Positions 23,104-57,266 of a DNA stretch of 64,000 nt are shown here, one piece after another. The DNA comes from Pleurocapsa sp. PCC 7319 (GTDB taxonomy: Bacteria; Cyanobacteriota; Cyanobacteriia; Cyanobacteriales; Xenococcaceae), in contig NZ_KB235922.1 of NCBI RefSeq assembly GCF_000332195.1, positions 5,553,322 through 5,617,321 on the forward strand. Direction: 5' to 3'. The notes below the pieces were generated by a model. The model saw nothing but the letters and a program-made list of their open reading frames with translations, made no database searches and was not told the origin of the DNA. The position numbers and the translations under genes are program-made. Each line of letters opens with the position of its first letter. Position 1 is the stretch's first letter.

Positions 23104-25062
23104 GTGAAAGTTCCCCGTCTTCATCCAGACACCATTGAAGAAGTCCAACACAGGATTGATATTGTCGATATCATCTCTGAGCATATCGTTTTACGTAAGC
23201 GAGGTAAAGATTATCTGGGTTTGTGTCCATTTCACAATGAAAAGACACCTAGTTTTAGTGTGAGTCAGGATAAGCAGGTCTATTACTGTTTTGGCTGTGG
23301 AGAAGGGGGCAACGTCTTTAAGTTTTTAATGGAGACAGGAAAACAATCTTTTGCTGAAGTAGTTTTAGATCTGGCTCGTCGCTATCAGGTGCCGATTAAG
23401 ACAGTTGAACCAGAACAAAGACAGGAAATTCAACGCCAGCTAACTTTGAGGGAGCAATTATATGAAATCTTAGCCATCACCTCCAGTTTTTATGAACATG
23501 CTTTGCATCGGTCTCAAGGAGAAGCTGCTTTTCAGTATTTGCGTCACCAAAGAAAAATTGAAGAAGCTACGGTGAGTAAATTTCAATTAGGTTATGCTCC
23601 TGCGGGTTGGGAAACCCTATATAAATATCTAGTTGAACAAAAACGCTATGCGGTAAATCTGGTTGAACAAGCAGGATTAATTAAACCTCGCAAAACTGGT
23701 AGTGGATATTACGATGTATTTCGCGATCGCCTAATGATTCCGATCAAGGATCTTCAGGGCAGAATCATCGGCTTTGGTAGCCGTAGTCTCAAAGATGAAG
23801 ATCAGCCGAAATATTTAAACTCTCCTGAAACCCCTTTGTTTGATAAAAGCAAAACTTTATTTGCCCTCGATCAAGCACGTAGTCAGATTGCTCAAGAGGA
23901 TTGTGCGGTAGTAGTAGAAGGCTATTTCGATGCGATCGCTCTCCATGAAGCTGGTATTGCCAATGTCGTTGCCTCCTTAGGTACAGCCTTTACCCAAAAT
24001 CAACTTAAGCAACTATTGCGCTTTACCGCTTCTAAACAAGTAATTCTTAACTTTGACGCTGATAAAGCAGGAGAAAAGGCTACTAAAAGAGCGATTAATG
24101 AAGTGGAAGATTTAGTTTATAGCGGAGTAATACAGTTACGTATCCTCAATCTTCCTGACAGTAAAGATGCTGATGAATTTATTAAAAGCCGAGCAGAGGG
24201 AGCAGTAATTTACTATCAAGCTTTAGCTAAAGCTCCACTGTGGCTTGACTGGCTAATAAATCGCTTAATCGCCGATCAAAATCTTAAAGCTGCCGATCAA
24301 TTTCAACAGGTAGCAGCAGGAATGATTAGACTATTGAATAAATTACAAGATGCTAATCAACGCAACCATTACTTAACCCACTGTGCTGAATTATTGAGTC
24401 AGGGAGATACTAGATTAGTCTTACAGAATTTGGCTACCCTGAAGTCACAGATTAAAACTGCTCGTCCCAGATATCAGAATAATTACTCCACTAAGAAAAA
24501 TAATTCTTCTGTGGCGCAACTGGCTTTTAAAATTGCTACCAACCCTGAAAGCGAACTCTTGGAACAGGCAGAGGCTTTATTATTGAGGATCTATATTCAC
24601 TATCCTCGATACCGAAACCAAATTATTGAGCAGTTAGAAACCAGAGACTTATTATTTAATGTCGTTGCTCATCGGTTTCTGTGGCAACAAATAATAGGGA
24701 TTGAAGCAGAAATTGCTGAAAAATCGACAGTAGGATTAAATCCTTTGTTAAGCGAATTATATAATCGTAGTCTAGATTTTCCCGAAAATATGATTTCTGT
24801 TACAAGATTATTTCATTTAGATGAAAAAACTCAAGAAGATGTTTTTCGTGCCGATGTACGCATAGCCGAGGCGATCGCATCTTTAGAACAGGTAAACTAT
24901 CAAAAGCGTCATTTTTACTGCATAAAACAGTTACAAAATCTCAACCCTACCAAGGATCTGGAACTGATGAAATATTACTATCAGGAAATTCAAACTACCG
25001 TAGAAAAAATCAACCAGCTAGAACAAATACGTCGAACATTTGCTCAAGACCCCGTGTTATGA
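23104..25062 (+). CDS. dnaG: DNA primase
   Basis: DnaG makes RNA primers for DNA replication. The 652-residue protein has the N-terminal zinc ribbon (Cys41, His44, Cys62, Cys65 in CPFHNEKTPSF and YYCFGCGEGGN), the RNAP domain (YLNSPETPLFDKSKTLFAL), the TOPRIM core (VVVEGYFDAIALHEAGI; LNFDADKAGEKAT) and a C-terminal helicase-binding region. It begins with GTG, the only start that gives the canonical LHPDTIEEVQHRIDIVDII. The length is typical for cyanobacteria. Confidence 0.95.
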   Translation: MKVPRLHPDTIEEVQHRIDIVDIISEHIVLRKRGKDYLGLCPFHNEKTPSFSVSQDKQVYYCFGCGEGGNVFKFLMETGKQSFAEVVLDLARRYQVPIKTVEPEQRQEIQRQLTLREQLYEILAITSSFYEHALHRSQGEAAFQYLRHQRKIEEATVSKFQLGYAPAGWETLYKYLVEQKRYAVNLVEQAGLIKPRKTGSGYYDVFRDRLMIPIKDLQGRIIGFGSRSLKDEDQPKYLNSPETPLFDKSKTLFALDQARSQIAQEDCAVVVEGYFDAIALHEAGIANVVASLGTAFTQNQLKQLLRFTASKQVILNFDADKAGEKATKRAINEVEDLVYSGVIQLRILNLPDSKDADEFIKSRAEGAVIYYQALAKAPLWLDWLINRLIADQNLKAADQFQQVAAGMIRLLNKLQDANQRNHYLTHCAELLSQGDTRLVLQNLATLKSQIKTARPRYQNNYSTKKNNSSVAQLAFKIATNPESELLEQAEALLLRIYIHYPRYRNQIIEQLETRDLLFNVVAHRFLWQQIIGIEAEIAEKSTVGLNPLLSELYNRSLDFPENMISVTRLFHLDEKTQEDVFRADVRIAEAIASLEQVNYQKRHFYCIKQLQNLNPTKDLELMKYYYQEIQTTVEKINQLEQIRRTFAQDPVL

Positions 25063-25151
25063 ATCAGGGCGAACGCATCTAAATCAGAGGAAAAAAGTAG
25101 TTAGGATAAATCTATTAAATTTCACCTAGACGTGCTTTTGGGTAGAGAAAA

Positions 25152-28100
25152 TTAAGCTAGTTTATGGCAATCCATAAAGTCTCTGATCATATCTTGTTCT
25201 CGGAGATAACGAAGATTATCCTGACCTCCTTTTTGGGAGAAATCTCTCAGTCGGATCTCTAAATAAGATTTTAGTTTTTGGCTTAACTCCTGTTTCAGTT
25301 TTGGAGTTTCCGCTGCTTCTAGCTTTTCTGCTAATTTGCGTTCCAGCTCTTGTCGATCTCGGCGACAATCAGGAAGCTCTAAAACTTGTACGGCATTTTC
25401 CCAATTTGAAGCCAAAGTAACTTTTTCCTGTTTTCCTTTATTTATCGTTGAATAACAGATGACATTTTGCTTGGTATTTTGATTAATTTCTGATTTTAAA
25501 ATCTCTAAAGTCCGAAGAATTAAGACTATTTTTTCGGTATCTTTGTTTGGGGGTATAAAATCCCAAAAGATTATTTCTTGTTGCAGATGTACTGATGGGG
25601 GTAAATCTACTTGTTGTCCCCTAAGTCTTGCTCTTTCTGCCATAATTCTTTGTCCTCGCCAATTTTGATAAGCGCGACGAAGTTGCTCTGTTCCTTGGAG
25701 GCAACGAAGAGAAAATCCACCTACTTCCTGAACGGCAAGGATTTTATGCCTTTCTTTGGTGGTAATTGGCGCGATCGCTTCTTCATCCGAGAAGTATTTA
25801 CGCAGTATCTCGACTTGTTTGATTGCTGCGATTTCTGTGGGATTGTCACCACCAATTAAGCCAGCCTTGGCTAGATTAATATAGTTAAATTGAGACGATT
25901 GGGGAATATTGCGATCTAATCGGACTAAAGGTTGAGACTGCTCGAATAATTCACGAATACGTGTGTCTCGATCTGCTTCTGTGGAAAATCTTTGCATAAA
26001 GCGGGTACAGGCATCAGCATCTTGATATAGTTTGGTGTTGACTCCTGCTTTTTCCAAGCAAAGCAAAGTATGTTGATAGACAATTTTTTCAAAATCAGGA
26101 TATTGAATCTCAGGAATTTTTTCAATATCCAATAGACGAAATACCTCCTGTGCTCGACGAGAGTTTTGCCATAAGGACGTACTGGCATTTAATATTACCT
26201 GGCTTAATTGTTGAGCCATTACTTCTAATCCTCTTTGAGCAGGATTTTCCAGATTAGCTTCTTGATCGCCGTTAGTTTTTGTCAAAAAATCTTCATAAAT
26301 TTCGTTAAGTCTAGCTCGCTCAAAAAGTTTTTCCCCAACAATTTCTAAGGCATCGGCTTTATTAGCTTGTTGGTTAGCAAGTTCTTGAAATTTGGCTTGA
26401 GATTGGGAAACTCTCTGCTGCCAGATGTTTAACTGATGGCGCAGTTCTACTAAATATTCTTTGAGGCGACGGAGAATTCCCACGGCGACAATTCTTGATT
26501 TACGTTCCAGGAGTGAATTTAGGGCTTGACCCAGATTGTTGAGAGCTAGATCGCACTCTTGATTGATCTTTGATTGTTTGGTTAAACCCCACAAATCCTT
26601 ATATTCGTGTAGTCGGAATAAAGCCGCTTCATATTCTTGCCAGGCTGCTTGCTCCACCACCAGCCAAGTTTTTTCAGCTTCTCGCTCCATTTTGGCAATA
26701 TTACGTTCAAAGCTATCTTCCATTAAATCTAGCTCTAATTGAAGAAACTTCAGTCCTAAATTGCGATCGACAAGCACGGTGTAAAGTCGTTCTTGTAATT
26801 CCCCTATTGCTTGATTAATCAAGCGATCGCGATTGTCATAAATTACTTTAAAAAAGTCACCGTGAGTTCGCTCATCATTTTGCGGTTCTCGCAAATGATC
26901 CTGCAAATATTCCTCTACCTTTGGTCTGAGGTAGCCGTCAACAAACTCAAGTATCTGACCGGTTTCACGACTAAAGACTTTAACAACACCATCTGCTCGA
27001 CACTCCAGCAAGTTTTCAGTTGTAATTTCTTGACGAATTTTTCCCAGCCATTGCTGAATTACAACTTGATAAGGATAGGAACGATCTGTCGTTTGTAAAA
27101 TTGCTCGACGCAATTCATTACCCAACAAATTCATGCTTCTCAGGCGGGCATAAACTATGGTTTGAGGTTCCACAGGTAAAGGAACTGAGCTATTGAGCCA
27201 CCATTTACATAAATCTGTAGCTAGAAGATAAGCTAAATAATGGCGAATATGATGAATCGGAACTTCAACAGTTGCTATGCCAAAACTCATAAAGTTGCGC
27301 GGATAACTCCTGCCCTGGGGAGGTAGATCGTTTTGTCCTGCTGCTGCCCGAACGATATTATCTCTAATAGAACGTTTATAAGCAGAAAAATCGGAGACTA
27401 AATCGAGAAAGATATTTTGAGCCATCGATTCTCTAACAGCATCTAAAGTCAGGTTGACACCGTGTTCGTTAGTAGTACCAGTGAGGTAAATATAGTCGTA
27501 GGGCGGCTGTTGCGACTCAATAGCCGAACCACCAGTAACACCATACTGGGCAGAAAAAGTGGTGTTTTGATCGCAGTAATAGTTTAGTTCCATTAAGGCA
27601 GCATAACCATTACACTTAACACGATCATTAGCACTAATACTGCTAAAACCATCAGGAGTCGAAATTATCGCGGTAGTTTGAACTCCCTGTTCTCCTTCAA
27701 ACCAGCGTTGGAGCAAATACCCCAGATCGATCACCATGCCACTACCCGTACCTCCAGCAATGGAACAAACCACAAATATATTTAGTTTTGGCTTGACCTG
27801 AAGACTGTAATTTTGGGACATGAAAGCGATATTTTCCCCTCGGCAAATTTTTCTCTTGGCATTCTGACAGGCATCACTAATGCGATCGCAGTTAAAAAAT
27901 AAGGAAAAGCGTCCGCAGGCTCGAATTTGCCCTGCTCCTGTTTCGGAGACTAATAGTCGAGGATTATTAATCAGTTCCGTTGGGAGCCACTGGTGATACC
28001 AAGGATAGATTTCTGGATGATGGACGATTTTTTGGGCTTCGGCTAAAGCTACCTGGGAAAGATATTTTTCTGATGCTTCCAAAGTATCTCCTGACATCAG

Positions 28101-28280
28101 AGGATTACTGGGCTTGGCTTCACGGTCAGTATCGATGTGTAAAAAACCAGCAATGGGAAAGTTAGCCAAATCGCCATAGGATTCTCTAATTAAACGCCGA
28201 ACTCGGGAAATTACTTCTAATCCCGTACCGCCAAGTCCGATAACTAAGGTAGGAACAATGGTTTTTCTATCTTCTCGCAT
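25152..28280 (-). CDS. large tubulin/FtsZ-like GTPase (Tubulin_2 / FtsZ-like family)
   Basis: This 1042-residue protein begins with a Rossmann-like nucleotide strand (VPTLVIGLGGTGLEVISRVRRLI) and has GAGQIRACGRF at 115-125 and the tubulin G-box IAGGTGSGMVIDLG at 174-187, the counterpart of GGGTGTG in FtsZ. Further GTPase-domain elements follow (AIISTPDGF; YDYIYLTGTTNEHGV). The region from about 500 to 1040 is largely helical and coiled-coil (EREAEKTWLVVEQAAWQEYE and similar). It is far longer than FtsZ (about 400). Such large tubulin-like proteins have been linked by gene neighbourhood to vWA proteins and membrane remodelling; here a vWA gene lies 45 bases upstream in the same operon. Polymerisation and GTPase activity are inferred. 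Confidence 0.85.
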   Translation of the reverse strand: MREDRKTIVPTLVIGLGGTGLEVISRVRRLIRESYGDLANFPIAGFLHIDTDREAKPSNPLMSGDTLEASEKYLSQVALAEAQKIVHHPEIYPWYHQWLPTELINNPRLLVSETGAGQIRACGRFSLFFNCDRISDACQNAKRKICRGENIAFMSQNYSLQVKPKLNIFVVCSIAGGTGSGMVIDLGYLLQRWFEGEQGVQTTAIISTPDGFSSISANDRVKCNGYAALMELNYYCDQNTTFSAQYGVTGGSAIESQQPPYDYIYLTGTTNEHGVNLTLDAVRESMAQNIFLDLVSDFSAYKRSIRDNIVRAAAGQNDLPPQGRSYPRNFMSFGIATVEVPIHHIRHYLAYLLATDLCKWWLNSSVPLPVEPQTIVYARLRSMNLLGNELRRAILQTTDRSYPYQVVIQQWLGKIRQEITTENLLECRADGVVKVFSRETGQILEFVDGYLRPKVEEYLQDHLREPQNDERTHGDFFKVIYDNRDRLINQAIGELQERLYTVLVDRNLGLKFLQLELDLMEDSFERNIAKMEREAEKTWLVVEQAAWQEYEAALFRLHEYKDLWGLTKQSKINQECDLALNNLGQALNSLLERKSRIVAVGILRRLKEYLVELRHQLNIWQQRVSQSQAKFQELANQQANKADALEIVGEKLFERARLNEIYEDFLTKTNGDQEANLENPAQRGLEVMAQQLSQVILNASTSLWQNSRRAQEVFRLLDIEKIPEIQYPDFEKIVYQHTLLCLEKAGVNTKLYQDADACTRFMQRFSTEADRDTRIRELFEQSQPLVRLDRNIPQSSQFNYINLAKAGLIGGDNPTEIAAIKQVEILRKYFSDEEAIAPITTKERHKILAVQEVGGFSLRCLQGTEQLRRAYQNWRGQRIMAERARLRGQQVDLPPSVHLQQEIIFWDFIPPNKDTEKIVLILRTLEILKSEINQNTKQNVICYSTINKGKQEKVTLASNWENAVQVLELPDCRRDRQELERKLAEKLEAAETPKLKQELSQKLKSYLEIRLRDFSQKGGQDNLRYLREQDMIRDFMDCHKLA

Positions 28281-28325
28281 TTTTATTTCTTTATAAATCT
28301 GTTAATTACCAATGAAAGCTTGTGG

Positions 28326-29204
28326 TCAGCATCCTTGTAATGCGGGCAATCCCATCCACCAAAAGGTCATCATTGTCCAAAAAACAGCATTAAACAAAGC
28401 AATTCTGCCTGCATGGTCAAAGCGGATCTGCAGAAAGTTTTGTAATAGTCTGTCTAGAGGAAAGAGCAACATCCACATTAGAGAAATCAGGGCCAGACTC
28501 AAGAAAAATTTGACAAATTTCGAGTTAGAACTAAATTTCTGTCTCAGTCGATTGGTAATTAAAGATTGAATATTTTGCACGTCAGCAGACAAAGCTAGTC
28601 CGCCAGTATCGCGTGCTGCTTGAGCCAAATTATGGGGAATAGTCTGACTCACAATCAAAAAATTTAGTTTGACCCGATGAGACTGGGCACGCAAAATTTG
28701 TGTGGGACTTAAATTTGCTGCTCCATCGGTAACCACCAGCATTTCTTTGCAGCGCTCGAGCTGGCTGGAAAGGGAATTTATACCCGATTCTACTGCTAGA
28801 GTTAGATTCGTTCCTCCTCCGACTTGCTTGAAGATATTTGCCTGTACTGCCTGCTCTAATGCAGTTGCGATCGCCTCAGAATCAGCAGAGAAATTATTAG
28901 TAATCGGCTGCACTAGATCGGCAAATCCAGCTAGAGATAAGTTATTGGGGTTGGGCGATAGAGCGTTTTCTTTAGCGTAGGCTTTGACTGCTTCAATTTC
29001 AGCTGCCATCAAACTTTTCCCACTTTTAAAGTCCCGATCATAAGTACTACTACTAAGATCGAGCATCATCTGTACGGAAACAGGGGGAGAAAACCAGCCC
29101 AAAGTATTAGTAAGCAAAGAAACGACGAGGAATACTAAAACTAAGAAGCCGGAAAGTTGCAAAATTGGATAACGCCAAGGGGAAGAAGGATAGGATAAAG
29201 TCAT
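28326..29204 (-). CDS. membrane-anchored von Willebrand A (vWA) protein
   Basis: The 292-residue protein has an N-terminal helix (about 15-35), a vWA domain with a complete MIDAS metal site (DLSSS at 49-53, GGGTNLTLAVES, VVTDGAAN), and two C-terminal helices (FFLSLALISLMWMLLFPLD; LFNAVFWTMMTFWWMGLP). The layout is like BatA/BatB proteins. vWA domains bind partner proteins through the metal. It lies between the receptor gene and the tubulin-like gene with short spacers (85 and 45 bases), so all are probably co-transcribed and may assemble at the membrane. Confidence 0.85.
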   Translation of the reverse strand: MTLSYPSSPWRYPILQLSGFLVLVFLVVSLLTNTLGWFSPPVSVQMMLDLSSSTYDRDFKSGKSLMAAEIEAVKAYAKENALSPNPNNLSLAGFADLVQPITNNFSADSEAIATALEQAVQANIFKQVGGGTNLTLAVESGINSLSSQLERCKEMLVVTDGAANLSPTQILRAQSHRVKLNFLIVSQTIPHNLAQAARDTGGLALSADVQNIQSLITNRLRQKFSSNSKFVKFFLSLALISLMWMLLFPLDRLLQNFLQIRFDHAGRIALFNAVFWTMMTFWWMGLPALQGC

Positions 29205-29224
29205 GGTATGGGGGAATATTTATT

Positions 29225-29256
29225 AATGGACAATGGATAATTGGCAATGGACAATT
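29225..29256. repeat. short ATGGACA/ATGGATA repeat within the operon
   Basis: Degenerate tandem units (aatggac, aatggat, aattggc, aatggac) occupy most of the spacer between the receptor and vWA genes. Confidence 0.5.
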
Positions 29257-29289
29257 AGATTAATGTCAGAGAAAAAAGCACTGGTTACG

Positions 29290-30966
29290 TTAATGTTCGA
29301 TTAATTTGAATCCGTTAATCATTTCTCTTGGTTTACCTAGCGCACCTGGTGCGATTTGCACGAGAACGCCATCTCCAGACCTTTCTCCATTCGTAAAAGA
29401 AAGTGGTTCGCCAGATGTTTCACTGGAGACAAGATTAACCAGCCGTAAATTTTGTTCTACAGAAGATCTAGTAGGATTGGGGCTTGCAGCTATAGCTTTG
29501 AGTAGGGCTTGTGTCGCATCATAACTAGCAGCAGTCCGCCAGTTCACCGTACCCATCCAGCGTTGATTAGCTTGTTCGGCATAGGGTTGATTGGTGGCAA
29601 ACCAGGGAACTGCAATTACTAGATCGTCTACCGCCGAACCACCATTATTCAGAGTTTGAGAACTGTATAAAGCATCCCCTCCTATCATCGGTAATTTTTG
29701 TGCAGACAATTCTGTATTTGCTCTGGCAATACCAATTGCGACAGAAGTAGTGTTGGTATTAGGAAATAAAGCGATCGCATCTATCCTTCCTTGAAGTGCT
29801 TGAATTTGTTGTCTAGGATCGAAATTAGAATCGCTAAGATCGATTGAACCTGATACTTTCCCACCTAGCTTTTGGAAATGAGCTTCAAATGCGTTTTGTA
29901 GGCTTTTACTATAACTACTGTGAGGATTGTAAAAAACTGCAACTCGATTAATACCCGTTTGGTCAGCATATTGAGCCAGCTTCTTACCAGTTATTTCGTC
30001 TGAAGGGACGGTTCTATAGAAATAATTACTCTTTAAAGAAGTACTGGTACTGGTAGGGGAAATAATCGCTAAATTAGCTTTTTCATATTCAAAGAGTGCT
30101 ATTTCACTGGCACTGCTGGAATTATGTCCAATTATCCCCAAAATATTAAGATCGCTAGCTAATTTTTGGGCAATAGTTTGAGCTCGTTGAGGCTCATTAC
30201 CATCGTTAGCAATATCTACTTGTACTAATTTTCCCCCTGCTCCGCCCGCATAATTAAATTGAGTTTGAGCATCTGCTATTCCCCTCAACATTTCTTTGGC
30301 AGAAGTTTCTTTATTTTCTACAGGAACTACTACTGCTATTTTCAGTGGAGAGCCTTGAAAAGAAGCTTGGGCGTTGTTGAGATAGATTTGTACTTCTGGA
30401 TCGCTGCGATCGCTGAAAACAGCTTTTTCTAAATTTTTGATCGCGACAGCATAATTACCCTGCTTAAAGGCTTCAATGCCATTATCTCGATACTTATTAC
30501 TGTTACCTTTAAATAAAACGCGATCGCTTTGACTAATCCATTCGGGATTGAAAGGAATAGGTGTAGTTAAAGTATTATTATTAGTCCGTGGTACTAAGTT
30601 TATCTGGTCGGTTGAATTCCCAGGTGCAGAACCTTGAGACTCGGGCTTATCAATAACGGAACAAGTGCCATTAAGCTTTTCTTGACCTTCTGGACAGGGC
30701 TTGAATTTTTGCCATAGATACAATCCGCTTCCTAGACTAGCGACGATAGCTAAAGCTATTCCCAGAATGGGTTTAAGTTTTCTATCATTACTTGAAGGAG
30801 AAATGCTTTTAGCTTTAGATAAATCTTCTCGATTATTTTTACAGCCTGGGAACATACAACTATCTCCCCAGTTTTCAATTTCTGGATGAGAATTAGCCGA
30901 AATTCCCTGACATATCCAAGGGGCAGAATTTCTGGTGGTGTCCGAATTATTTGGTGATTCTATCAT
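29290..30966 (-). CDS. membrane receptor: Cys-rich N-terminus, TM, TPR-like, type I periplasmic-binding domain
   Basis: With the ATG whose complement is at 30964-30966 the protein has 558 residues. Residues 18-45 hold Cys19, His27, Cys37 and Cys42, possibly a small zinc-binding unit on the cytosolic side. A single transmembrane helix (about 66-86) follows, then CPEGQEKLNGTC, a TPR-like repeat (IEAFKQGNYAVAIKNLEKAVF) and a full leucine/isoleucine/valine-type binding domain (LKIAVVVPVENKETSAKEMLRGIADAQ; ILGIIGHNSSSASEIAL; SPTSTSTSL; YFYRTVPSDE). It is not a lipoprotein or free binding protein, and no permease is near, so a sensor role is inferred. The gene at 53564 is a paralogue. An in-frame GTG at 31014 would add 16 residues. 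Confidence 0.75.
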   Translation of the reverse strand: MIESPNNSDTTRNSAPWICQGISANSHPEIENWGDSCMFPGCKNNREDLSKAKSISPSSNDRKLKPILGIALAIVASLGSGLYLWQKFKPCPEGQEKLNGTCSVIDKPESQGSAPGNSTDQINLVPRTNNNTLTTPIPFNPEWISQSDRVLFKGNSNKYRDNGIEAFKQGNYAVAIKNLEKAVFSDRSDPEVQIYLNNAQASFQGSPLKIAVVVPVENKETSAKEMLRGIADAQTQFNYAGGAGGKLVQVDIANDGNEPQRAQTIAQKLASDLNILGIIGHNSSSASEIALFEYEKANLAIISPTSTSTSLKSNYFYRTVPSDEITGKKLAQYADQTGINRVAVFYNPHSSYSKSLQNAFEAHFQKLGGKVSGSIDLSDSNFDPRQQIQALQGRIDAIALFPNTNTTSVAIGIARANTELSAQKLPMIGGDALYSSQTLNNGGSAVDDLVIAVPWFATNQPYAEQANQRWMGTVNWRTAASYDATQALLKAIAASPNPTRSSVEQNLRLVNLVSSETSGEPLSFTNGERSGDGVLVQIAPGALGKPREMINGFKLIEH

Positions 30967-31140
30967 TGGTATTACAAATCGAAAAAAAAGGCTGGCAAAG
31001 TGACGATAAATCACTTAACCAGCCTCGTAGTGGATTTTCCCACTCTCTTGACTAGACATAGTATTCTATTTATTCTTGGAGAATCTCGATCTCCATTAAC
31101 CAGCGGTTGTTATAACCTGCTTGGCACTGAGTATCCTCAT

Positions 31141-31518
31141 TTATTCCAGAGAATATCTATAGGAATGAGTTACACGACAGACTAAAGTTTTCTTTTTATC
31201 TTTAGTAAAACTAATATCAATCGAGCCAAATCCAGTTTTGTTGATTATTTTCAATAGATTATTGCGAAAAATCTGGTTAGCTTTAGTTTTAAATACCGGG
31301 GAGCAGTCTAAAAAATTCTGAAATTCCTCTTTAGGAAAGGCAAATGGAGCTTCTATTAAATTTTTGGCGTTAATTTTTAAATGTTCTTTACCGCCAATTC
31401 CAGGATGCATTTGAATATCAAGGCAAATACCTCCTGTTCCACAGGCTTCATATCTAGATATGGCAGAACTGAGAGATTTAAATGACTTATCAAGAGAGTG
31501 TGAATTTGGAGAGTTCAT
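31141..31518 (-). CDS. unknown 125-residue protein, first gene of the receptor/vWA/tubulin-like operon
   Basis: I do not recognise it. It has no signal peptide or membrane helix and contains EACGTGGICLDIQ, IGGKEHLKINAKNLIEAP and GFGSIDISFTKDKKKTLVCRVTH, giving an alternating alpha/beta impression. Three of its four cysteines are close to Gly residues. The start is a clear ATG. It is on the same strand as the receptor gene but 175 bases away, so co-transcription is plausible but not certain. It is divergent from the NB-ARC/WD40 gene with 220 bases between them. Confidence 0.5.
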   Translation of the reverse strand: MNSPNSHSLDKSFKSLSSAISRYEACGTGGICLDIQMHPGIGGKEHLKINAKNLIEAPFAFPKEEFQNFLDCSPVFKTKANQIFRNNLLKIINKTGFGSIDISFTKDKKKTLVCRVTHSYRYSLE

Positions 31519-31738
31519 TTCTGTATTAGTTGTTTTACTCTACATTCAATCAAAAGTATCAAATTGATAACTAATTGTATAAAGAATATATCTAATTTAT
31601 ATATCTCTTGTCAAGAAAGTTCTATTTTTGTCAGCCCCTATTTGGTAGGGTTTGTACGACTTAGATTTGAGCTTCAGACTGATAAACTATAGATATAAGC
31701 TCACTATTGATAAGTTGGTTGTGTAATTATTTATCTTT

Positions 31739-34700
31739 ATGTTCAAAATCTCCGAAGACTTGTTGCAGGCGATCGCCCTAGAGCAGAATATTTCGCAAAT
31801 AGAATTAGGAACTCTAAAATTGGCTCTGTTGGGTAAATCGGCTATAGAAATTGCCACAGTTCTAGATGTGAGTGCAGTGGCAGTTAGAAAGAGATTGGGT
31901 TCGGTATATCAAAAGTTCGACCTGCCAGGAAAGAGTCCAGGTAAATTGGTAGCTCTGAAAAATATTCTTACGGAGAGATCTCAACAACTATCACAAGTAA
32001 AGCAGGTTCAATTTACACAAGACTGGGGTGACGCGATTGATGTCGCCGATTTTTATGGCAGAGAATTGGAGTTAGAACATATAGAAAAGTGGGCAATTGA
32101 AGAGCATTGTCGCTTGATAACTCTTCTGGGTATGGGAGGGATTGGAAAAACAACTTTATCGATTAAGTTGGCACAAAAGATTGCCCCGAAATTCGATTTT
32201 GTAGTCTGGAGAAGTCTGCGCAGTGCTCCAGCAATAACCGATGTGGTTGAAGATATTTATAATTCTTTATCTCAACAACAACAAGATTTACCAGCCAATG
32301 TTGGCGATCGCACTAAGATTTTACTAAACGAATATTTACGCCAATATCGTTGTCTGATTGTTTTAGACAATTTAGAGTCTATTCTCCAAAGTGAGACTCG
32401 TGCGGGAGCCTATCGTCCAGGATGCGAAGATTATGGGGAATTTTTACGGCAAATAGGCGAAATCCCTCACTCAAGCTGTGTGGTTCTAACTAGTAGAGAG
32501 CTACCGAAAGAAGTTGCCTTATTAGCAGGAAATACCAAACCGATAAAAATTTGGCGCTTGCAAGGATTACAAACAGCAGGAAAGAGTATTCTCCAAGCCG
32601 AAGGTTTATTTGGTTCTGAGACCAAGCTGCAAGAATTAATCGATAACTATGCTGGAAATCCTCTAGCTTTAAGAATTGCTGCCACGACGATTAAAAATCT
32701 ATTTGGGGGCAACATCGATGGATTTCTCGCCCAAAAAGTAATTACTTTTGGGGATATTAGCGACTTGCTTCGGGAACAGTTAGTACGGTTATCAGACCTA
32801 GAACGGGAGATTATGTACTGGCTAGCAATTGAACGGGAGCCAGCTACCCTAAATCAGTTGCAATCGAATTTTGTGATCGCGCCAACAATTCCCCAACTCC
32901 TAGAGGCGATCGAGTCATTAACCCGTAGGTCTTTAGTGGAAGTAGAGGAAAGGGAAAGTAAGTTTACCCTGCAAAATGTCATCGTTGAATATCTTTATGA
33001 TCGCCTAATTGAATCAATTTGCCAGGAAATTACTGCCCAAAAAAGTGAATTTCTGAACAATTACGCTCTACTTCAAGCTACAGCCAAGGAATATATCAGA
33101 GATGCTCAAGCCCATTTGCTGCTTGAGCCTGTCAAAAATCGATTGCTCGCTCTTTTAGGCGATCGTAGCCAAGTTGAGTCCCAGCTAAAGCAAATTATAG
33201 CAACTTGGCGACAAAAAACAGAATCTACCCCCAGAGCTGGATACACGGCAGGAAACATACTCAATTTACTCTGTCAATTACAATCCGATCTCCGAAAATA
33301 CGATTTTTCTCATCTGGCAATTCGTCAAGCATATTTGCAGAATATCAATTTACCAGAAGTTAATTTTGCCTATTCTCATTTTTCCCAGTGCGTTTTCTCA
33401 AAAATTTTTGGTGGTGTTTTATCCGTAGCCTATAGTCCTGATGGTCAGTATCTTGCCACAGGAGATACCAATGGAGAAATAATACTTTGGGAAGTTAATC
33501 AAGGTAGGCTTAAATCGAGAATCAGAGCAGATAGCAATTGGATTCGTTCCGTAGCATTTAGTCCAAACGGTCAATTTCTTGCCAGCACGGGGGAAAATCA
33601 AACCATTAAAATTTGGTCGATGGTTGATGACTCATGTATACAAATGATAAATGATGTTCAAAATCAAGTTTGGGTCGTCAGCTTTAGCCCCGACGGTTCC
33701 ACAATTGTCAGTGCTGGTGAAGATAAAACTGTAAAAATTTGGTCAGTGGAAAGCGGACAATGCCTTAAAACTTTTGTTGGTCATAGTGATTGTGTTCGTT
33801 CGGTAGCGTTTAGTCTTGATGGTCAGTATCTTGCTAGTGGTAGTGAAGATAAAACCGTTAAGATTTGGTCAGTGGCAAGCGGACAGTGCCTTAATACTTT
33901 TACTGGTCATAACAACTGGATTCGAGCCGTAGCGTTTAGTCTTGATGGTCAGTATCTTGCTAGTGGTAGTGAAGATAAAACCGTCAAGATTTGGTCAGTG
34001 GCAAGCGGACAGTGCCTTGATACTTTTACTGGTCATAACAATTGGGTTTGGTCTTTAGCATATAGCCCTGATGGTCAATATCTTGCCAGCGGTAGTGCTG
34101 ATCGCACCATCAAGATTTGGCACTTAGCTACCAGTCAATGTCAACAAACTTTAGCAGGCCACCAAAACTGGGTTCAATCAATAGCCTATAGTCCTGATGG
34201 TCAATATCTTGCTAGCGGTAGCACAGATCGCACAGTCAAAATTTGGCACTTAGCTACCAGTCAATGTCAACAAACCTTACAAGGTCATAGTATTTGGATG
34301 AGAGCCATAGCCTATAGTCCTGATGGTCAGTATCTTGTTAGCGGAGGAGAAGATAAAACTGTCAAGATTTGGTTGGTAGAAAACGGTCAATGCCTGAAAA
34401 ATTTTGTTGGACACAGTAATTGGGTTCAGTCAGTAGCATATAGCCCCGATGGTCAATACATTGCTAGTAGTAGTCCCGATCGTACGATCGAGATATGGGA
34501 ACTTAAAAGTGGTAAATCTCAAGAGATATTGGAAACAAACGGTAACTGGAGTAGAACCCTAGCATTTAGCCCCGATAGTAAAACTCTTGTCAGTGGAAAT
34601 GAAGATTCAACGGTTAAGATCTGGTCGGTAAAAAGTGGTCAATGCCTTGCCACTTTCACTGGTCATGAAAACTGGGTGAGTTCGGTGGCATATAGCCCAG

Positions 34701-35269
34701 ATTGTCAATACATCGCTAGTGGTAGCTCAGATCGAACTATTAAAATCTGGGAAATCAAAAGCGGTCAATGCCTTAATACTTTTAGTCATGAAAACTGGGT
34801 GAGTTCAGTAGCATATAGTCCTGATGGTCAATACATTGCTAGTAGTAGCTCAGATCGAACTATTAAAATCTGGGAAATCAAAAGCGGTCAGTGCCGTACC
34901 ACTTTCAGCGAGCATGAAAACCATATATCATCAGTGGCATATAGTCCTAATGGTCAATATCTTGCCAGTGGTAGTGAAGACCAAACTATTAAAATTTGGG
35001 AGCTAAAAAGCGATCGCTGTATTAATACTCTTTCAGGTCATAGTAACTGGGTAAGTTCGGTAGCGTTTAGTCCCGATAGCAAATATCTTGCCAGTACCAG
35101 TATCGATGAAACAATTAAGTTATGGGATTTAACATCAGGTCATTGCCTTAAAACTATGCGCTCTACTCGACCTTATGAAGCAATGAACATTTATGGTGCT
35201 AAGGGATTAAGTACAACTCAAATAGCTGTTTTGCAAGCCTTAGGAGCAAAGTTAGAATCTAATTTATGA
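31739..35269 (+). CDS. STAND ATPase: N-terminal HTH, NB-ARC, 14 WD40 repeats
   Basis: The 1176-residue protein opens with a helix-turn-helix-like domain (LGKSAIEIATVLDVSAVAVRKRLGSVYQKF). Next comes an NB-ARC ATPase with P-loop GMGGIGKTT at 131-139, Walker B CLIVLDNLES and a GNPLALRIAA motif. About 14 WD40 units (residues about 555-1145) would form two seven-bladed propellers. STAND proteins are switches that oligomerise when the repeat domain senses a ligand; in bacteria some act in antiphage defence or regulated death. Several neighbouring WD40 units (4 and 5, 6 and 7, 11 and 12) are nearly identical, and unit 11 lacks one residue before its His. It is divergent from the tubulin-like operon. 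Confidence 0.88.
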   Translation: MFKISEDLLQAIALEQNISQIELGTLKLALLGKSAIEIATVLDVSAVAVRKRLGSVYQKFDLPGKSPGKLVALKNILTERSQQLSQVKQVQFTQDWGDAIDVADFYGRELELEHIEKWAIEEHCRLITLLGMGGIGKTTLSIKLAQKIAPKFDFVVWRSLRSAPAITDVVEDIYNSLSQQQQDLPANVGDRTKILLNEYLRQYRCLIVLDNLESILQSETRAGAYRPGCEDYGEFLRQIGEIPHSSCVVLTSRELPKEVALLAGNTKPIKIWRLQGLQTAGKSILQAEGLFGSETKLQELIDNYAGNPLALRIAATTIKNLFGGNIDGFLAQKVITFGDISDLLREQLVRLSDLEREIMYWLAIEREPATLNQLQSNFVIAPTIPQLLEAIESLTRRSLVEVEERESKFTLQNVIVEYLYDRLIESICQEITAQKSEFLNNYALLQATAKEYIRDAQAHLLLEPVKNRLLALLGDRSQVESQLKQIIATWRQKTESTPRAGYTAGNILNLLCQLQSDLRKYDFSHLAIRQAYLQNINLPEVNFAYSHFSQCVFSKIFGGVLSVAYSPDGQYLATGDTNGEIILWEVNQGRLKSRIRADSNWIRSVAFSPNGQFLASTGENQTIKIWSMVDDSCIQMINDVQNQVWVVSFSPDGSTIVSAGEDKTVKIWSVESGQCLKTFVGHSDCVRSVAFSLDGQYLASGSEDKTVKIWSVASGQCLNTFTGHNNWIRAVAFSLDGQYLASGSEDKTVKIWSVASGQCLDTFTGHNNWVWSLAYSPDGQYLASGSADRTIKIWHLATSQCQQTLAGHQNWVQSIAYSPDGQYLASGSTDRTVKIWHLATSQCQQTLQGHSIWMRAIAYSPDGQYLVSGGEDKTVKIWLVENGQCLKNFVGHSNWVQSVAYSPDGQYIASSSPDRTIEIWELKSGKSQEILETNGNWSRTLAFSPDSKTLVSGNEDSTVKIWSVKSGQCLATFTGHENWVSSVAYSPDCQYIASGSSDRTIKIWEIKSGQCLNTFSHENWVSSVAYSPDGQYIASSSSDRTIKIWEIKSGQCRTTFSEHENHISSVAYSPNGQYLASGSEDQTIKIWELKSDRCINTLSGHSNWVSSVAFSPDSKYLASTSIDETIKLWDLTSGHCLKTMRSTRPYEAMNIYGAKGLSTTQIAVLQALGAKLESNL

Positions 35270-53563: not shown

Positions 53564-54970
53564 TTACTTGACTGGAACAAAATCATAACCAAAGGGAGAA
53601 CGATTTCCCGGTTTCACTGTAACTAGTTGTACCGACTGACTGCGATCGCCTGAAGCCAAAAATTTAACCGTGCCGGATGCACCTTCGAAAGAAAAGTTGG
53701 CATCAGATAAAGTCTGTTGTATACCCTGACGAGTAGGATCATTAGTAATTCCCGCAATCAAGGATTTTGTAGCATCATAAGCCATTGCTGTACGCCAGTT
53801 AACATCTCCTCCCCAAAGACGACGTGCTGCGGTAGGAAAATTAGAGCTAGTATTTCCTAAGATATGCCAAGGTACACTCAACACCAAATCCACAGCATTC
53901 TGACCCACCACCTGTAATGTCTGGGGTTTATACATACTATCTCCACCTAACATAGGCAACTGACGATTATTAACTTGCATCAGCAAATAAGCCTTATTTG
54001 CAGTTGTTGAGTCATTCAAGAAAATTAAGGCTTCTGCACCTTGACTACGTGCTTTCTGAATTATATCGGCAGGATTAAAATTACTTTGAGATAAGTCGAC
54101 TTCCGTGGCGATTAATCCTCCATTACTCAAAATGTCAGTGGTAAAGGTATTTTTAAGGGAATTACTATAATCGCTTTGGGAATTATAAATCACCGCAGCT
54201 TGACGCTGATTAAGTTTTTCCAAAAAATATTTTGCCAAAACACTACTAGTAAAGCGATCGCTTGGAACAGTACGAAAGATATAGTTTCCCGCGTCAGACA
54301 GAGAGATAGAAGTGCTAGTGGCAGAAATAGCAACCAAGCCATTTTCTTGATAAATAGGTGCTGTAGCTAAAGTCACACCACTAGAAAAATGTCCAACAAC
54401 ACCTAAAATATCCCGATGAGCAACTAACTTATGAGCGATTTTTTTGGCAACTTCAGGATTATTATTATCATCAGCTAAAAAAACTTTGAGAGGTTCACCG
54501 TTAATCCCTCCTTGCTGATTGATTTCATTCTGAGCTTGAGCAACACCTCTAAGTATTTCCTGAGCTGTTGTCATCTCGGTGCCAATTGGTACAGGGACAG
54601 CAATACTATGGGATCTAACATCTCCAATACGAGCATTATTCAAATAAATGAGAGCTTCAGGATCGTTAGGTTGTTTGCTTAAAGATTTTTCCAGTAGCAA
54701 TACTGCTTCAGGCTCATTACCCTGGGCGAGTGCCTTGGTAGCAAGTTGTTTTTCGGGAGTAATATTTTGACTAATTAAAATGTTGTTTCCCGTACTAATT
54801 TGTTCTGGCGTTAAATTGGTTGATGTTTTAGCAGTGTTATCTAAATTAGAAGTAGATGAATTCAAGGAATTATTTGTCTTGGTAGTCAACCACCATAAAC
54901 CACCTGCTATTGCACCTATAGTTATCAGTAACGACAATAACAATACTGTGGTTTCTCTTTTCTGGTTCAT
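53564..54970 (-). CDS. membrane-anchored type I periplasmic-binding receptor
   Basis: The 468-residue protein has an N-terminal uncleaved-looking anchor (TTVLLLSLLITIGAIAGGLWWL), a TPR-like segment (KALAQGNEPEAVLLLEKSLSKQPNDPEALIYLNNA) and a leucine/isoleucine/valine-type binding domain (IAVPVPIGTEMTTAQEILRGVAQAQ; ILGVVGHFSSGVTLATAP; TSTSISLSDAGNYIFRTVPSDR). It is a paralogue of the receptor at 29290 but lacks the cytosolic Cys-rich part. No ABC permease is near. Next to it are a lipoprotein and a Ser/Thr kinase, suggesting a sensor role (inferred). Confidence 0.8.
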   Translation of the reverse strand: MNQKRETTVLLLSLLITIGAIAGGLWWLTTKTNNSLNSSTSNLDNTAKTSTNLTPEQISTGNNILISQNITPEKQLATKALAQGNEPEAVLLLEKSLSKQPNDPEALIYLNNARIGDVRSHSIAVPVPIGTEMTTAQEILRGVAQAQNEINQQGGINGEPLKVFLADDNNNPEVAKKIAHKLVAHRDILGVVGHFSSGVTLATAPIYQENGLVAISATSTSISLSDAGNYIFRTVPSDRFTSSVLAKYFLEKLNQRQAAVIYNSQSDYSNSLKNTFTTDILSNGGLIATEVDLSQSNFNPADIIQKARSQGAEALIFLNDSTTANKAYLLMQVNNRQLPMLGGDSMYKPQTLQVVGQNAVDLVLSVPWHILGNTSSNFPTAARRLWGGDVNWRTAMAYDATKSLIAGITNDPTRQGIQQTLSDANFSFEGASGTVKFLASGDRSQSVQLVTVKPGNRSPFGYDFVPVK

Positions 54971-55865: not shown

Positions 55866-57266
55866 TCAATATTTACTTTCTTTTTTTTCATATTTAGCTA
55901 ATAAATTAGTAGCAATTTCATACCAGATTTGGCGATAGCTTCGATGTTTATTTTTGTCGGTTAGCTGTACACCTTCTAATTCTGGATATTGCTGGTGAAA
56001 AATAGTGTCTACTTGTCTATAAAAAGCTCCAGCATCAAGGTTTAAAGCTTGAATTTGCTGGTATATTTCCTGTTGTAATGTTTGTTCACTTTGACTAAGA
56101 GAAGTATTGGATACGCTAGTATCGGAGTTAGAATTACCATCCTGAGGAATTTTGGTTTTGATCACCGCAAAACTAATTAAACCAGGAATAAAAATTACTC
56201 CCGCAGTAATTAATCCCCAATGCCAGGTCTTAATTTTTTTCAGCTCTTCCCGAGTGGGAATATGAGTAACCTGGTGGGTAATAGTCATAGCTTTAGTAGA
56301 TATACGGGAAATATGGCTATGGATTTGAGAGGCAAAACTAGTAGGAGATGTCGTGTTTTCTAGGTTCCCTGGTGCAACTATTAAAGTACGTACACGAGAG
56401 ATAAAACTATTAACCCGAGAATTGTTTTCTTTACTCAACTGCTGGTGAACTTTGTCCGCCGATTGATAGCGATCGCAAGGTCGATAAGCCAGCATTTTAT
56501 TTAAGATTTTTTTGAGTGAAGAACTGACTTTAAGCTCTGATTCCCAGTTCCATTTCCCTTGATGACTGTCGTATAAATCCTCGGGCTGTTTGCCAGTTAA
56601 CAAAACTACTGCCGTAGCTGCTAATGAATACAGATCGCTACAGGGAAAAGCTTGACCACGACGTAGTTGTTCATCTGGAGAGTAACCTTTTTTGCCAATC
56701 AAAGTAAGCGACTGTCCGGTTGATTTTGACACAGCGTTAGCGGCTAACTTGACACAGCCAAAATCAATTAACACAGTTTTGCCGTCTACTTCCCGACGAA
56801 TTAAATTATCGGGGGAGATATCACGATGAATTAACTGAGAGTCATGAATATAATCTAATACAGGAAGAATATCCCACATCATATTCGTAACTTCAGTTTC
56901 AGTTAATTGACCCTTTCGTTTAAGTAATTCCCAATAACTTTCCCCTTCAATATATTCTTGAACCAGAAACAGCGATCGCTTTCCATCAACCCGAGTTTGT
57001 AAGAGAGCCTCAAATTTAGGAATTTGTTTATGCTGAAGTTTATAGAGAATTCCTGCTTCCCGTTCAAATAAATCTTCTGCTTGGCGTAATTCGCGATCGC
57101 TTTCTACTTGGGGAGCAAATTCCTTGAGGACACATAATTCTCGGTAACGATGTGTATCTTCAGCTAAATAAGCTCTGCCAAAGCCTCCTCTACCAACCTG
57201 TTTGACAATTCGGTAACGGTTATTGAGGATGATTCCATCGCGCAAAGTAGCCGAAGTTCTAGACAT
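55866..57266 (-). CDS. transmembrane serine/threonine protein kinase
   Basis: A Hanks-type kinase of 466 residues with all key motifs: glycine loop VGRGGFGRAYLAED, Lys in CVLKEF, catalytic HRDISPDNLI, DFG in LIDFGCVKL and a GKKGYSPDEQ activation region. A juxtamembrane stretch of about 75 residues, one helix (about 343-364, WGLITAGVIFIPGLISFAVI) and an external tail of about 100 residues follow. The external tail has a C-terminal domain (YRQVDTIFHQQYPELEGVQLTD) that may be a sensor. It is convergent with the lipoprotein gene. Confidence 0.92.
   Translation of the reverse strand: MSRTSATLRDGIILNNRYRIVKQVGRGGFGRAYLAEDTHRYRELCVLKEFAPQVESDRELRQAEDLFEREAGILYKLQHKQIPKFEALLQTRVDGKRSLFLVQEYIEGESYWELLKRKGQLTETEVTNMMWDILPVLDYIHDSQLIHRDISPDNLIRREVDGKTVLIDFGCVKLAANAVSKSTGQSLTLIGKKGYSPDEQLRRGQAFPCSDLYSLAATAVVLLTGKQPEDLYDSHQGKWNWESELKVSSSLKKILNKMLAYRPCDRYQSADKVHQQLSKENNSRVNSFISRVRTLIVAPGNLENTTSPTSFASQIHSHISRISTKAMTITHQVTHIPTREELKKIKTWHWGLITAGVIFIPGLISFAVIKTKIPQDGNSNSDTSVSNTSLSQSEQTLQQEIYQQIQALNLDAGAFYRQVDTIFHQQYPELEGVQLTDKNKHRSYRQIWYEIATNLLAKYEKKESKY

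Follow-up and report, generated by a model that had tools for sequence, protein, structure and literature searches.

A membrane-spanning receptor (P0003), a vWA-domain membrane protein (P0002), and a 1042-residue tubulin relative of the FtsZl1/Tubulin_2 family (P0001) are encoded by three consecutive genes of Pleurocapsa sp. PCC 7319. The window analyzed is the 64,000-nt stretch at positions 5,553,322–5,617,321 of NZ_KB235922.1 (GCF_000332195.1), from a host genome of 7.39 Mb in 10 contigs. Together the three genes form a genuine and conserved unit within a known family that is still unexplained. The receptor is a stricter partner of the tubulin than the vWA protein, and the link between them persists where the genes are dispersed. 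The inner knuckle and membrane span of the receptor are constant while its outer domain is exchanged. The cassette suggests that extracellular signals control a giant tubulin relative.

The receptor motif co-occurs with the tubulin

Subfamily members scoring over 1000 bits are referred to as tubulin A; tubulins below 1000 bits, among them G122, G290, G142, L039, L040, and L121, are outside the subfamily counts. The set comprises 67 distinct orthologs, and neighbors were counted for the 53 with at least 5 kb of upstream sequence. A neighbor was defined as a gene within 3 kb on the same strand, and the vWA count includes short forms. L034 and L035 were dropped as duplicates of L077 and L060, and the near-identical L038 and L089 were both kept. 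The receptor lies near the tubulin in 34/53 orthologs, a vWA gene in 36/53, and both in 31/53. The order receptor, vWA, tubulin is common to five complete cassettes of the P0001 group, which are the window, L108, L157, L181, and L182.

The N-terminal motif of the receptor was counted in two genome samples that have 14 tubulin-A genomes in common (union, 42). Sample 1 consists of 244 cyanobacterial genomes that are at least 90% complete. Tubulin A is present in 18 and the receptor motif in 19, including all 18, which leaves the motif in 1/226 genomes without tubulin A. The vWA profile was detected in 13/244 genomes, all within the 18 with tubulin A (G258 by the membrane part alone). Sample 2 consists of 194 genomes of the host's order. 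Tubulin A is present in 38 and the motif in 44, with 37 shared and the motif found in 7/156 genomes without tubulin A. The 38th tubulin-A genome (G409) has a receptor directly beside its vWA and tubulin genes with a diverged motif that fell under the threshold. The seven exceptions comprise four genomes of genus code g21, G308 with a broken-looking frame, and two weak matches; one of these (G377) is in a protein in which the receptor profile recognized no binding domain. Within six genus codes (g1, g9, g17, g32, g45, and g59), tubulin and motif are either both present or both absent. Because several genera contribute many genomes each, the Fisher values (2.5e-26, 6.8e-18, and 1.7e-31) overstate independence. 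Receptor and tubulin distances correlate with rho 0.75 across 35 loci; computed without a control gene, this correlation carries no weight as evidence here. The receptor as a general cyanobacterial domain was rejected, as its motif is present in 19/244 genomes.

Dispersed genomes were picked as those in which the tubulin mostly has no receptor neighbor. The motif was found elsewhere in 14/16 of them. The receptor adjoins a vWA gene on a contig other than the tubulin's in G061, G064, and G066, for which the tubulin contigs were taken from matching stretches of the order sample. In Thermosynechococcus, the tubulin, vWA, and receptor genes each have a location of their own. Among 14 genomes checked, 12 have the vWA profile, in three cases already beside the tubulin; Leptolyngbya PCC 7375 matched by the membrane part only. 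The original prediction had made the receptor's conservation beside the vWA/tubulin pair its test, and the receptor is indeed conserved with the pair, both by adjacency (34/53) and by motif (18/18 and 37/38). Separately, the g21 genomes (L149, L186, G380, and G388) encode CHCC receptors and no subfamily-A tubulin, and these may be remnants or reflect a changed use.

Receptor architecture and topology

P0003 is a 558-residue protein (29290–30966, minus strand) read from the ATG at 30966. Its N-terminal part carries a W-x-C-x-G...H...C..C motif (30796–30921, minus strand), referred to as the CHCC knuckle, followed by a single predicted membrane span (approximately 30709–30771, minus strand; model helix 70–87). 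The outer part (29293–30495, minus strand) contains a TPR region (residues ~158–204) and a Leu/Ile/Val-binding-type (LIVBP) domain (~208–555). The W, C, G, H, C, and C of the motif are invariant in the 22 sequences of alignment A6, and the genome counts above were made with this motif. Metal binding by the four CHCC residues would make it a putative zinc knuckle. P0003 matched Peripla_BP_6 with an E-value of 1.2e-33. The top Foldseek matches of its structural model (pLDDT 82.8) are LIVBP-type structures (3hut, 5.6e-22; 4q6b, 6.6e-22). The match, the fold, and the predicted single span agree with the earlier description of P0003 as a transmembrane receptor with an external binding domain. The span was placed by hydropathy and by the charges of 41 receptors, which have 81 K/R and 28 D/E before the span and 64 and 52, respectively, after it. 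The N-terminus with its knuckle is predicted to be cytosolic from these charge counts only.

A Ser/Thr-rich loop of P0003 aligns with 4mlc and 4q6b and is by itself no indicator of amino-acid specificity. For the LIVBP-type receptor, the most likely candidate ligand would be an amino acid or another small molecule of that kind. A paralog in the host genome (L051) matches both Pkinase (2.5e-33) and Peripla_BP_6 (1.1e-35), so that the outer module is fused to a kinase, a familiar type of signaling output. Therefore, the TPR-LIVBP module serves as a signaling input elsewhere.

Other receptor features were noted. A Cys-Pro-x-Gly-Gln...Cys motif lies just outside the membrane across outer-domain types in the window, L086, L098, L119, L154, and L182. 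L101 and L155 have a looser form, and the motif is missing in most of the 52 receptors compared. The window also encodes a TPR-LIVBP paralog lacking the CHCC motif (53564–54970, minus strand; Peripla_BP_6, 6.8e-35), which has a protein kinase gene (55866–57266, minus strand; Pkinase, 7.9e-35) about 0.9 kb away.

The outer domain is exchanged

Pfam assigned the receptors' outer domains to several families. Peripla_BP_6 is found in the window, L037, L057, L101, L150, L157, L181, and L182, the PstS-like PBP_like_2 in L084, L086, L111, and L119, and Phosphonate-bd in L114 and L154. L103 carries a Ppx-GppA domain behind the motif and span. The L098 receptor, whose gene follows that of its tubulin 1.9 kb downstream, matches PsbP_2 below the cut-off. 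On a FastTree tree of 75 tubulins, the outer-domain types require 9 changes, or 8 without L098, and 5 when only the three solute-binding families are counted; some tubulin placements are on open forks and long branches. In a more distant tubulin group, the neighbor again has a Cys-x-x-Cys N-terminus and a binding domain (NMT1 and OmpA in L040, PBP_like_2 in L162), and L163 and L164 of this group have no such neighbor. The phosphonate-binding-type receptor at L154:7247–9103 ends in a staphylococcal-nuclease-like (SNase) domain.

The vWA protein is less constant

P0002 is a 292-residue protein (28326–29204, minus strand) analyzed with alignments A3 and A7. Its layout is an N-terminal span, a vWA domain with a metal ion-dependent adhesion site (MIDAS), a C-terminal membrane part, and a conserved final Cys; two spans only are over the threshold in P0002 itself. 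The vWA domain covers about residues 40–215 (28560–29087, minus strand). The Pfam VWA models gave no match to P0002 itself. Of 30 aligned homologs, 16 matched VWA_2 at E ≤ 0.1, the best with 2.3e-10. The MIDAS elements are DLSSS, GGGTN, and TDG. D49 is invariant in the 30 homologs, and S51, S53, and D160 are at least 90% conserved. The complete MIDAS that the original prediction saw in a membrane vWA protein is present, and the homolog matches support the vWA assignment. A PDB profile search with six vWA sequences gave no match, and the search with 30 sequences found the vWA structure of Bacteroides BatB (E = 0.007). The 17 vWA homologs used for a positive-inside count have 49 K/R versus 7 D/E ahead of the first span. 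This count, a sequence property only, predicts an extracytoplasmic vWA domain.

The vWA domain is less constant in the cassette than the receptor knuckle. The short forms L057, L058, L095, and L157 have 121–152 residues and keep three spans but have little or nothing of the vWA domain. These forms suggest that the membrane part of the protein matters more than the MIDAS.

The tubulin-like protein and its family

P0001 (25152–28280, minus strand) matches Tubulin_2 (PF13809) with E = 7.3e-83 and 279 bits against a cut-off of 27. Its match to the canonical FtsZ/tubulin family (PF00091) is 19.5 bits, below the curated cut-off of 33. The tubulin GGTGSG box predicted in this 1042-residue protein is there as AGGTGSG, in a clear member of PF13809. 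The glycine-rich positions G17, G18, T19, and G20 and the box G176–G181 are invariant or nearly so in 54 aligned sequences. P0001 is 37–44% identical to the main-subfamily orthologs in alignment A4. The layout consists of a GTPase-type N-terminal domain (~10–360), long helices (~440–700), and a mixed C-terminal part. In the structural model (pLDDT 87.3), residues 509–562 and 568–644 form long coiled-coil-like helices. Foldseek returned four matches at E ≤ 0.001, with gamma-tubulin first. No T7-loop residue was assignable with confidence in P0001, and a PDB profile search with the tubulin alignment gave no match. P0001 is a putative GTPase. A conventional FtsZ is encoded elsewhere in the host genome (PF00091 at C7:382333, E = 3.9e-50, 425-residue frame).

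P0001 matched proteins in 34/60 related genomes at E ≤ 1e-20, a minority of them in its own subfamily. Scores over 800 bits were found in six of the 60 genomes besides the window, and the remaining matches belong to another Tubulin_2 subfamily that also has a copy in the host genome. This second gene (L041, C7:1571198) matches Tubulin_2 with E = 5e-99 and is 26% identical to P0001. Its surroundings (C7:1562000–1581900) include a gene with an OmpA domain (2.9e-6) and one for a membrane protein that marginally matches MotA/ExbB. The best 80 of 141 relatives from a search of genome contigs were evaluated. Of these 80, 65 (L056–L119 and L121) are cyanobacterial or, in the case of L079, labeled Gracilibacteria, and L079 falls deep within the cyanobacterial tree. 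P0001 groups with L108 and L157 (support 100, long branches), and L181 and L182 are similar to P0001. The other listed genomes of the window's genus code lack both tubulin and receptor motif, and therefore gain or loss of the cassette was recent. L155 has two tandem tubulin genes behind a single vWA gene and, some 5 kb farther on, a pair of CHCC proteins that look like coiled coils.

Gene layout and neighbors

The four minus-strand open reading frames described earlier are at the positions given for them, and the inter-gene spacers of the cassette are 45 and 85 bases, as had been stated. The fourth, P0004 (31141–31518, minus strand), is an orphan of 125 residues with no Pfam match of weight and relatives in 1/60 genomes, its own. 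It is separated from the receptor by a terminator-like hairpin followed by a U run (30988–31026, minus strand), which RNA folding placed about 15 bases from the receptor ATG. The region 30979–31045, which includes a neighboring hairpin, folds at −30.2 kcal/mol (z −6.2; 0/200 shuffles equal). The cassette is best viewed as three genes because P0004 is an orphan beyond the hairpin, and this part of the original prediction falls: a four-gene operon was rejected on the hairpin and on the restriction of P0004 to its own genome. The hairpin might end transcription of the orphan gene or act as an attenuator in the receptor leader, and readthrough is possible. A scan of 24900–31800 found no minus-strand terminator-like sites, and the same scan missed this long hairpin; promoter-like sites showed no excess (18 versus 16.7 in shuffles). 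The listed start of P0003 is a GTG at 31014 that would give 574 residues. The ATG at 30966 was taken as the start because receptor homologs begin shortly ahead of the W-x-C-x-G motif and the GTG sits within the hairpin.

The listed neighbors of the cassette are dnaG (DNA primase) and a WD40 protein. The latter is large, with 14 WD40 stretches, and is divergent from the cassette (31739–35269, plus strand). No ABC permease or ATPase gene was found in the three-gene cassette or in these two neighbors, the only genes inspected for it, and a conventional ABC importer was rejected on the absence of such a gene from the cassette. A known anti-phage defense system was rejected with 0 PADLOC matches to the four proteins. 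A viral origin was rejected after a pattern-based scan of viral contigs in which none of 243 stretches was confirmed.

Discussion

We favor, at about an even chance, the reading that the cassette is a signal-input unit for a tubulin-like GTPase in which a receptor, usually for a small nutrient, gates the tubulin. The co-occurrence and adjacency counts, the exchange of outer domains behind a constant inner part, the kinase fusion in L051, and the charge counts speak for it. The receptor would sit in the cytoplasmic membrane with its solute-binding domain outside and its CHCC knuckle inside. Binding of a small nutrient would close the outer domain, and closure would be relayed through the single span to the knuckle. 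The knuckle would then bind FtsZl1/Tubulin_2 and act as a switch on its nucleotide state or on how it assembles at the membrane. The vWA protein, with its MIDAS domain facing outward, may be an anchor or adapter in this membrane. Contact between knuckle and tubulin and an output of the system downstream of it are parts of this proposal. A bolder version is possible, with the balance against it: external phosphate, phosphonate, or amino acids would act directly on a cytoskeletal GTPase with no kinase between, through one knuckle carried by exchangeable domains.

Several observations weigh against a signal-input unit. Neither partner is near the tubulin in 14/53 orthologs. The motif occurs without tubulin A in 1 genome of sample 1 and 7 of sample 2 and once in an unrelated-looking protein (L185), and no motif was found in 2/16 dispersed genomes, which are Nostoc sp. 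UCD121 and a 1.8-Mb assembly of an uncultured Gloeocapsa. The L033 and L155 receptors are coiled-coil-like and have no recognized binding domain. The vWA gene is absent from 5/18 tubulin-A genomes. The P0001 model resembles tubulins weakly (best E, 3e-4; TM 0.16/0.34). The receptor tree places P0003 with L181, L108, and L182 in a supported set together with three main-group receptors and kinase-type paralogs, and therefore either cassettes have exchanged receptors or the tree is unclearly rooted.

These points were weighed with four other explanations. Adjacent genes without a common function would fit the 14 orthologs with neither partner nearby. This idea is already contradicted by the genome co-occurrence counts, which hold in dispersed genomes, unless a larger sample breaks the pattern; with the identical order in five complete cassettes (L157 with a short vWA protein), we give it almost no credence. 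A defense or cell-death system whose outer domain senses phage or neighboring cells would account for the patchy distribution within genera, and vWA proteins occur in conflict systems. However, PADLOC models match none of P0001–P0004, the pattern-based scan yielded no tubulin relative in viral contigs, the window neighbor is a DNA primase rather than a defense island, and the outer domains belong to nutrient-binding families. This explanation is very unlikely.

An aid to uptake or storage, with the tethered solute-binding domain working for a transporter and the tubulin placing it on the membrane, draws on the membership of the outer domains in transporter substrate-binding families, and transport was offered as an alternative by a reviewer in 2010 (PMC2875224). 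However, no ABC permease or ATPase gene lies between the cassette members (farther neighbors were not searched family by family), the domains are fused to the inner motif, one is replaced by a Ppx/GppA-like domain, and in the paralog L051 the module is joined to a kinase. We consider this role improbable. The remaining explanation is the membrane remodeling of Makarova and Koonin, in which tubulin and vWA protein shape the membrane and the receptor is one of several lineage-specific regulators or cargo adapters. The pairing of vWA and FtsZl1 and this interpretation of it are already published (PMC2875224), and a vWA gene is nearby in 36/53 orthologs. However, the vWA gene is lost in 5/18 genomes and the domain is excised in L057, L058, L095, and L157 while the spans remain, whereas the receptor motif is kept in 18/18. 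A vWA-centered mechanism would predict the opposite, and remodeling is an unlikely account of the cassette.

The role of FtsZl1 has been open since its description in 2010 with vWA, GTPase, kinase, and OmpA partners, for which membrane remodeling was proposed (Makarova and Koonin, PMC2875224). T6-H7 is unidentifiable in FtsZl1 according to that paper, and Tubulin_2 sequences serve as an outgroup in PMC9871819. In the published review of the 2010 paper, G. Jekely pointed to FtsZl1 genes in Arthrospira, next to a branched-chain amino-acid periplasmic component, and in Polaromonas, next to a TRAP-type binding protein, among other cases, and proposed transport or signaling; the authors judged such neighbors not conserved (PMC2875224). 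A reviewer also objected that it was unclear how a cytoplasmic FtsZ-like protein works with periplasmic partners (PMC2875224). A membrane-spanning partner with swapped nutrient binders is a concrete, testable answer to how such a protein meets the periplasm. The novelty claimed originally for the receptor pairing stands in part. The Arthrospira case was already in the PMC2875224 review; what is new is how general the pairing is, that dispersed genes still co-occur, that the cytosolic CHCC part is constant, and that outer domains are exchanged. We found no literature on receptor-tubulin pairing in cyanobacteria, with most subscription journals and the PMC2875224 supplement outside the coverage.

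The cassette is related to several known systems. It shares with the FtsZl1/Tubulin_2 system of PMC2875224 the family, an N-terminal FtsZ-like part, long helices, a helical C-terminal part, an operonic vWA gene, and a conventional FtsZ elsewhere in the genome. In contrast to the systems presented there, it has no OmpA, GTPase, or kinase gene. The strict receptor partner with a constant inner motif is a feature of the cassette that does not appear in the main text of PMC2875224, where the Arthrospira case in the review is the only forerunner found. The second locus of the host genome, L041, shares Tubulin_2 but belongs to the other subfamily and has OmpA-domain and MotA/ExbB-like genes and no receptor. 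The outer domain of the receptor is like the LIVBP/Peripla_BP_6 proteins (3hut, 4q6b, and LivK 3td9) in fold and sequence. Unlike these proteins, the receptor is tethered by a span and preceded by a TPR region and a predicted cytosolic CHCC knuckle, and its cassette has no transporter genes. The kinase-coupled receptor L051 shares the membrane-tethered TPR and Peripla_BP_6 input, but its inner part is a protein kinase, whereas the cassette receptor has a short CHCC motif and a neighboring tubulin gene.

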